The translations under genes were made by a program, and so were the position numbers. From Sphingomonas hengshuiensis (GTDB taxonomy: Bacteria > Pseudomonadota > Alphaproteobacteria > Sphingomonadales > Sphingomonadaceae): DNA of 64,000 nucleotides. This document shows, piece by piece, positions 8,194 to 8,505 of the stretch (position 1 is the first letter of the stretch; each line of letters opens with the position of its first letter). The DNA lies in assembly GCF_000935025.1 (NCBI RefSeq), contig NZ_CP010836.1, forward strand, positions 3,472,001-3,536,000, written 5' to 3'. Under the pieces are notes generated by a model. The model made no database searches. It was given only the letters and a program-made list of their open reading frames with translations, and was not told the origin of the DNA.

Positions 8194-8219
8194 CGTCTCC
8201 CGGGCTTGCGCAATCGGGC

Positions 8220-8356
8220 TTGCCTTGCAGAGGCCCAAGCGACTGTTCGGGTTCAATGACCTTACAGCGGGCTGTTCACGCTGAACTACGGGCTCTGCAA
8301 CCCTTGCATGATTCGAACTTCCCGCCGAAGCCGCACCGCATTCTTCATGCAATGCT
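8220..8356 (-). ncRNA. Candidate IS110 bridge RNA
   Basis: Upstream of the transposase, on its own strand, the noncoding end forms two stable hairpins: 8346-8353 with 8304-8311 (8 bp) and 8293-8300 with 8225-8232 (8 bp, closed by extra GC pairs). The loop of the second contains GTTCAGC, complementary to the target GCTGAAC, and ACAGTCGC, identical to the element's own terminal sequence plus core (minus strand, 7252-7245). This matches the logic of IS621-type bridge RNAs with target and donor loops. The exact ends are estimates and expression is unproven. Confidence 0.6.
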
Positions 8357-8505
8357 GCAGTTGGCAAGTTACAAGCATGACGGCCAAGAATAGGGGGCCA
8401 GCCGCCCATTAGCCAGGAGGCTGCCAACAAAATCCCCCCCTTGTGCGCCGCAATAAAGCGTTGCAGCATGGAACCCGCCGGGTCCTCCGGCGCTTGGGAG
8501 CCTTG

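Follow-up and report, generated by a model that had tools for sequence, protein, structure and literature searches.

The window, i.e. the whole 64-kb stretch of DNA analyzed here (positions 3,472,001-3,536,000 of contig 1 in a 5.2-Mb genome), contains an insertion sequence with a transposase gene on the minus strand, a long non-coding end upstream of this gene and, on either side of the element, the two halves of an interrupted REP-like repeat (Table 1). The transposase ORF (8193-7261) specifies 310 residues (309 plus the initial ATG); the ATG at 8187 offers an alternative start codon, and the GGGAG at 8197-8201 suits it as well as or better than the ATG at 8193. Over nearly its full length the protein can be aligned with the recombinases of IS621 (E 3.9e-37) and ISCro4 (PDB 9t56; E 1.1e-37), the latter being its top-scoring solved relative by sequence, and the D, E, D, D and S residues named for the IS621 active site in PMC11208158 are all found in the aligned columns. 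The features of the IS110 group are further seen in the co-occurrence of the DEDD (PF01548) and serine (PF02371) domains, in a non-coding end that is longer upstream of the gene (~182 bp) than downstream (15 bp) and in site-specific insertion that duplicates no more of the target than a short shared core, in 10 of 10 genomic copies. We also considered the IS1111 group, in which the RNA region lies downstream of the transposase, and rejected it as both the long non-coding end and the covariance model match described below lie upstream.

Table 1. Coordinates of the insertion sequence, its candidate bridge RNA and its target in the window
Feature	Position	Strand	Remarks
Entire insertion sequence	7246..8375	-	1130 bp with one CT core copy; 10 copies flanked by REP halves, 98-100% identical
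IS110-group DEDD-serine transposase (recombinase) gene	7261..8193	-	PF01548 2e-25, PF02371 3e-19, NF033542 8e-69
Candidate bridge RNA region	8203..8375	-	DNA from left-end core to right donor guide; RNA ends predicted
Predicted 5' hairpin	8333..8355	-	Fold of 8324-8372: z -2.49, 3/200 shuffles equally stable
Predicted target-binding stem-loop	8267..8325	-	Fold z -3.21, 0/200 shuffles equally stable
Left target guide AATCATG	8307..8313	-	5/7 against target CGTCATG; core position CA at 8305-8306
Right target guide AGTTCAG	8281..8287	-	Pairs with CTGAACT of target; AGTTC 5/5 plus AG core
Predicted donor part	8203..8246	-	Donor guides flank apical hairpin (8216-8236), which is present in the consensus fold
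Left donor guide ACAGTCG	8240..8246	-	Identical to element end; then core C at 8239
Right donor guide TTGCGCAAG	8205..8213	-	Partly complementary to CTTGTAACTT (CAAG plus TT)
Handshake-guide position, CC	8203..8204	-	First base pairs with target G preceding core
Left donor half (element right end), ACAGTCG	7246..7252	-	
Right donor half (element left end), TGTAACTT	8366..8373	-	Includes -10-like TAACTT (8366-8371)
-35-like TTGACG	7259..7264	-	Overlaps transposase stop codon; 17 bp from TAACTT in joined circle
Left target half in REP, CGTCATG	8376..8382	-	
Right target half in REP, GAACT	7239..7243	-	Adjoins core CT at 7244-7245
Intact other arm of occupied REP pair	7162..7177	+	Exact target copy (genome 3479162-3479177)

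Insertion site and core

The genome carries ten long copies of the element; in seven the aligned element is identical and in three it is ~98% identical. All ten interrupt one REP-like repeat at the identical base and in the identical orientation, with the target reading CGTCATG-CT-GAACTTG on the transposase strand. On both strands of the genome 55 intact exact CGTCATGCTGAACTTG sites are left, some of them belonging to pairs with one arm occupied, as against no occurrence of a reversed control pattern. The own copies by themselves leave an ambiguous core, a three-base overlap GCT, which relatives at other targets (e.g. CTCATC-CT-GAGG) narrow to CT, which is also the IS621 core according to PMC11208158; the core GC of the original prediction was thus one base off. 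CT is found in target and donor alike, the joined ends of the element (circle junction) reading ACAGTCGCTTGTAAC. A shifted left end is seen in three relatives (L137, L138 and L140), which have CTTTGTAAC in place of CTTGTAAC and TT at the guide core position; judging by these letters, their core is possibly shifted by a base or is TT.

The window segment 7161-7247 is itself a REP-like inverted pair, and by DNA search the related short repeats in the genome number in the dozens, some of them having the intact exact target in both arms. Among rhizobial relatives (L136, L137, L138, L140, L142 and L146) insertion is observed beside short palindromes, e.g. CTCCCCGC...GCGGGGAG, which are terminator-like and unlike classic REPs.

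Relatives of the element

In 295 genomes of the genus, matches from other genomes at E 1e-40 or better have transposases that are 35-45% identical (at most 7 candidates scored per genome). Closer relatives, with 48-68% identical transposases, are found among the matches listed in Bradyrhizobium, a Pseudorhodoplanes MAG, Roseicella, Roseomonas, Rhizobium, Sinorhizobium, Shinella, Martelella, Rhodovastum, Methylorubrum and Methylobacterium, and also in genomes of the same taxonomic class, namely 2 other genomes of 385 sampled and 20 of 111 in one genus. Absence from a searched genome is no proof, because only some candidates (at most 7 or 6 per genome) were scored. Twelve plasmid records were used, from among the 40 matches listed of 1013 matched. 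Viral contigs contributed one distant match (32% identical), and the DNA search returned no match in plasmids (near mode) or phages (distant mode). The same-genus elements (35-46% identical), in few of which both ends were found by end motifs, stood outside the permutation test described below and were used for the covariance model and some donor and handshake checks.

A candidate bridge RNA in the upstream non-coding end

A covariance model trained on 23 relatives, with own copies excluded, matches the window at 8331-8203 on the minus strand with 84 bits (E 1.8e-18), the runner-up in the window scoring 16.3 bits (E 0.023); E-values of this model are rough because its calibration was short. 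With 150 of 5677 first-look candidates scored across the whole genome, 15 matches were obtained at E 0.001 or better: ten are the copies of the element, at 83-84 bits, and the other five are copies of a second IS110 element, at 38-42 bits. Among 32 distant loci, 24 reach E 2e-4 or better, with weaker matches in L043, L042, L040 and L041; L063, L069 and L134 have no match at E 1, and L052 matched on the wrong strand only. In Rfam no family reaches its gathering score in the window, and of the 12 weak matches from a permissive scan of 7100-8500 the top three lie on the REP hairpin.

A consensus of 32 aligned non-coding ends comprises a target stem-loop, whose outer helix of 11 pairs encloses an internal loop and an apical GGG/CCC hairpin, and 3' of it a donor part with a GGGC/GCCC hairpin. 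Across the 21 consensus pairs 96.0% of the cells pair, and sliding the partners lowers pairing to 32-49%. Both sides have changed in 97 cells against 27.3 in shuffles, with 0 of 500 shuffles reaching 97; 92 of these 97 cells belong to the outer target helix, all 11 pairs of which vary on both sides in some relative, i.e. show compensatory change. The donor hairpin says little, being nearly invariant. In the window itself the target helix of the model includes three non-standard pairs, and for the donor part neither the predicted fold nor the 32-sequence consensus provides a closing outer stem. Thermodynamics alone is insufficient as proof, since the z-scores run from -3.21 for the target stem-loop and -2.49 for the region of the 5' hairpin to -1.14 for the whole RNA (24/200 shuffles equally stable) and +0.90 for the donor part at 8200-8262 (166/200 equally stable, the mean shuffle being more stable). 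The putative target-binding internal loop lies in a conserved stem-loop. The original prediction had placed target and donor motifs in one larger loop; we instead locate the target guides within ~8267-8325 and the donor guides around a later hairpin at ~8203-8246.

Target guides and their covariation with the insertion site

The GTTCAGC to which attention had originally been drawn does lie on the transposase strand, at 8286-8280, and its complement GCTGAAC is part of the REP target; the left target guide and the right donor guide had been missed. The second core base at the left target guide in the window is A instead of T. Since all ten own-genome copies have identical guides and target, they by themselves provide no test of covariation, and we used the relatives instead. 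Element ends were located via donor motifs (CTTGTA..., ACAGTCGCT... and variants), independently of the guides. From 69 loci kept, we obtained 20 distinct guide pairs with both flanks present (that of the window plus 19 of relatives), each with one target, for a permutation test with an identity cut at 48%; loci lacking a flank were left out of this test. Five loci (L039, L105, L118, L122 and L126) were excluded beforehand as the pattern found no guide region and five others (L072, L077, L096, L099 and L102) as repeats of own copies. In L116 and L141 the start of the left guide was assigned manually.

Right guide and target agree at 91 of 100 positions, against a permutation mean of 45.1, and on the left side the count is 91 of 140 against 52.7; none of 20,000 permutations reaches either observed score. 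This test overstates independence, because related elements inherit guide and target together. With one row for each of the 13 distinct right guides the right-side count is 59 of 65 against 27.3. The left-guide signal peaks beside the core (17/20, 16/20 and 18/20 at positions 4-6), position 0 being under expectation (5/20). Pairs that are at least 80% identical and have different guides come from one subgroup only, and in some of them left positions 4 and 6 change together with the target, positions 0 and 3 never doing so.

Identical loops at different targets, which had been named beforehand as an observation that would speak against guiding, do occur in part: L114, L124 and L145 have both guides in common, transposases 100% identical to that of L128 and different left flanks, and L142 and L146 form a like pair with an identical left guide and different left flanks. 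Matches of the left guide to the left flank are as low as 2/7 (L124, L146) or 3/7 (L117, L137-L140, L142). Matching of the left guide is therefore loose; as the right flanks match at 4-5 of 5 positions, we read the left-flank differences as tolerated left-side mismatches. With these mismatches on the left, both guides are complementary to the target and covary with it. In L039 (Roseicella), inspected by eye, the left guide fits the left flank and the right guide fails to match the right one; this could be a rearranged copy.

Putative donor guides, handshake base and junction promoter

On the donor side, ACAGTCGCTTG occurs on the transposase strand at 8246-8236 and is also the reading of the rejoined ends, as had been noted. 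The TTG following ACAGTCGC had been included in the donor guide; since the letters at this place vary among relatives (TTG in several, and GAG, CAG, TCG and CCG), it is not a general part of it. The left donor guide agrees with the donor end types ACAGTCG, ACAGCCG, ACGGTTG, ACAGTTG, ACAGATG and ACGGATA and mismatches the donor end in L106, L117, L119 and L121; this comparison tests only the later letters because the search pattern fixed the first three, and the pattern was misplaced in L140 and L141 and found no match in some other loci. For the right donor guide there is consensus pairing, of CAAG with the CTTG of the element start; donor complementarity with covariation is thus seen through the left donor guide, and through the right one as consensus pairing only. 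The partial pairing of the right donor guide resembles the discontiguous donor pairing of IS621, which PMC11208160 describes together with short subterminal inverted repeats flanking the donor.

The candidate handshake base, a concept introduced for IS621 in PMC11208158, pairs with the last pre-core target base in all of the 71 loci counted (via G-T in 7), in a count made without L120 (no CAAG) and without loci lacking the left end. The window has C for G as against G for C in most relatives, a matching change. The base that follows it pairs in only part of the 71 loci.

A TTGA(C/T) box is seen at fixed spacing in all 68 right ends examined, and 61 of 64 left ends place TAACTT or its variants at the 17-bp spacing, the remaining three being off by one base. 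The -10 box is weak, with TAACTT itself in 37 of 64 left ends and variants elsewhere. Judged by sequence only, a promoter would thus be rebuilt at the circle junction; in IS621 the promoter arises across the joined ends (PMC11208160).

Proposed mechanism and alternatives

We consider that window positions 8203-8375 very probably encode, on the minus strand, a bridge RNA of the IS110 group. What we observed comprises the copies, their site specificity, the conserved target stem-loop, the covariation of guides and target, the agreement of the left donor guide with the element end, the catalytic residues and the promoter spacing; production of the RNA, its binding and strand exchange are proposed by analogy with IS621. 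We propose with high confidence an IS110-group element whose upstream non-coding end specifies an RNA that would pair with both the REP target and the joined ends. Excision would join the element ends and bring the -35 box of the right end to the -10 box of the left end, and the promoter so formed would transcribe the bridge RNA, to which the transposase would bind. One stem-loop would then pair with the REP target CGTCATG-CT-GAACT, and the guides around the second hairpin with the joined ends ACAGTCG-CT-TGTAACTT, so that recombination at the CT core would insert the element at a fixed place and in a fixed orientation in the REP. The element would land at the same spot each time because its guide RNA would pair with the REP palindrome and with its own ends. 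The original proposal of an IS621-style RNA upstream of the transposase is supported by the model match, the copies and the covariation. The checks suggested with it gave a match in the window with our own model, a consensus fold with compensatory changes and, on comparison of flanks, all ten copies at one REP position with guide-target covariation in relatives.

Could the transposase protein alone recognize the REP, with the complementarity in the non-coding end being a coincidence or the remnant of a past insertion? REP targeting is also reported for the IS3, IS4, IS256 and IS5 families (PMC1525189), and the own-genome copies all have one target. However, relatives with 49-68% identical transposases differ in their targets with both guide stretches co-varying, and the conserved fold puts these stretches in a loop, which makes recognition by protein alone highly improbable. 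The location of the conserved region, which immediately precedes the transposase start and adjoins with its 3' end the GGGAG near the start codons, would suit a region acting mainly as a leader or regulatory RNA for transposase expression rather than as a guide, and the REP-inserted ISPpu9 is described as having two regulatory small RNAs (PMC8450116). We hold a mainly regulatory function to be quite improbable, as loop bases that track the insertion target and the element ends would be needless in a leader. The guide and leader roles can nevertheless coexist, and the position of the 3' part of the RNA beside the likely ribosome-binding site suggests a possible translation feedback.

The structure originally drawn for this region consisted of two hairpins with 8-bp stems at 8346-8353/8304-8311 and 8293-8300/8225-8232. 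The latter stem is exact and the former inexact, the exact pair being 8345-8352/8304-8311. That precisely this two-hairpin fold, or a switch between folds, should be the functional structure deserves almost no credence. The two 8-nt complements in 184 bases speak in its favor, though by themselves they are weak evidence: 2000 letter shuffles average 0.24 such complements, with a probability of 0.051 for two or more. The predicted fold of the whole RNA and the 32-sequence consensus both lack the two stems, and L015 and L017 carry an altered base in the apical hairpin (GGGTCGCAGAG). The left target guide is covered by the TCATGCAA of the first stem, whose TTGCATGA is part of the 5' hairpin; the second stem would join the tips of the two later hairpins. 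The complements may reflect chance or an alternative fold. As functional structure we rejected the two stems, on the basis of the whole-RNA fold and the consensus.

A second element and possible natural retargeting

The genome of the window also harbors a second IS110 element, with a 37% identical transposase and its own bridge-RNA-like region, in five copies (L147-L151, near 2433663, 2682470, 4580869, 726290 and 4827140, respectively). Its right guide exists in two variants that are one base apart, CGTCGGAG and CGACGGAG; the right flanks of L151 and L148 are exact matches, those of L147 and L150 are one base off each, and L149 is without a right end. We tentatively suggest, with confidence a little short of even, that guides in this alphaproteobacterial clade follow the intergenic palindromes of their own hosts and that changes of a few guide bases, with the handshake base changing to match, naturally retarget one recombinase lineage, the two right-guide variants of the second element, each found in one copy beside a target that it matches exactly, being a further instance.

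As a compact CT-core element in multiple copies, with the 55 intact exact targets in its own genome and with relatives aimed at other sequences, such as L091 at CGTCGTC-CT-GACG, the present element together with these relatives makes a natural series for studying guide mismatch tolerance and retargeting.

Comparison with known systems

Among the titles listed in literature searches, none was on the present element. At the transposase level, ISMno7 and ISMex17, annotated IS110-like elements of Methylobacterium and Methylorubrum, are 53% and 59% identical. The guide layout of the window is shared by ISMno7 (L145) and by a relative from Methylorubrum extorquens AM1 (L143), the guides of ISMno7 and ISMex17 differing because their targets differ. 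With ISCro4 the likeness lies in the transposase sequence. REP association of IS110 elements was described earlier for ISPa11, ISPpu9 and ISPpu10 (6/6, 7/7 and 7/7 copies; PMC1525189), to which we liken the present element by description; ISPa11 is, however, classed with IS1111, and its RNAs are described as lying downstream of the gene. ISEc21, an IS110-type element with a seekRNA, is alike in its upstream non-coding region, in RNA bases that match both target strands and in placing the match to the top strand 3' of that to the bottom strand, but its target is described as a conserved stretch of IS3-family transposase genes rather than a REP (PMC11187229).

The closest parallel in mechanism is Escherichia coli IS621. 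Bridge RNAs located in IS110-group left ends have been described for it, as have targets in REPs and CT cores (PMC11208160, PMC11208158), and it is alike in its DEDD-serine recombinase, in an RNA in the long left end with the target part before the donor part, and in the joined-end promoter. It differs in its REP sequence and guides and in a recombinase that is only distantly similar, and the present RNA, known from sequence alone, is likened to that of IS621 by layout. No general idea is changed by our findings, since IS621 is already an established case of an IS110 bridge RNA that targets a REP; rather, the mechanism is known from that system and the present element is a well-supported new example.
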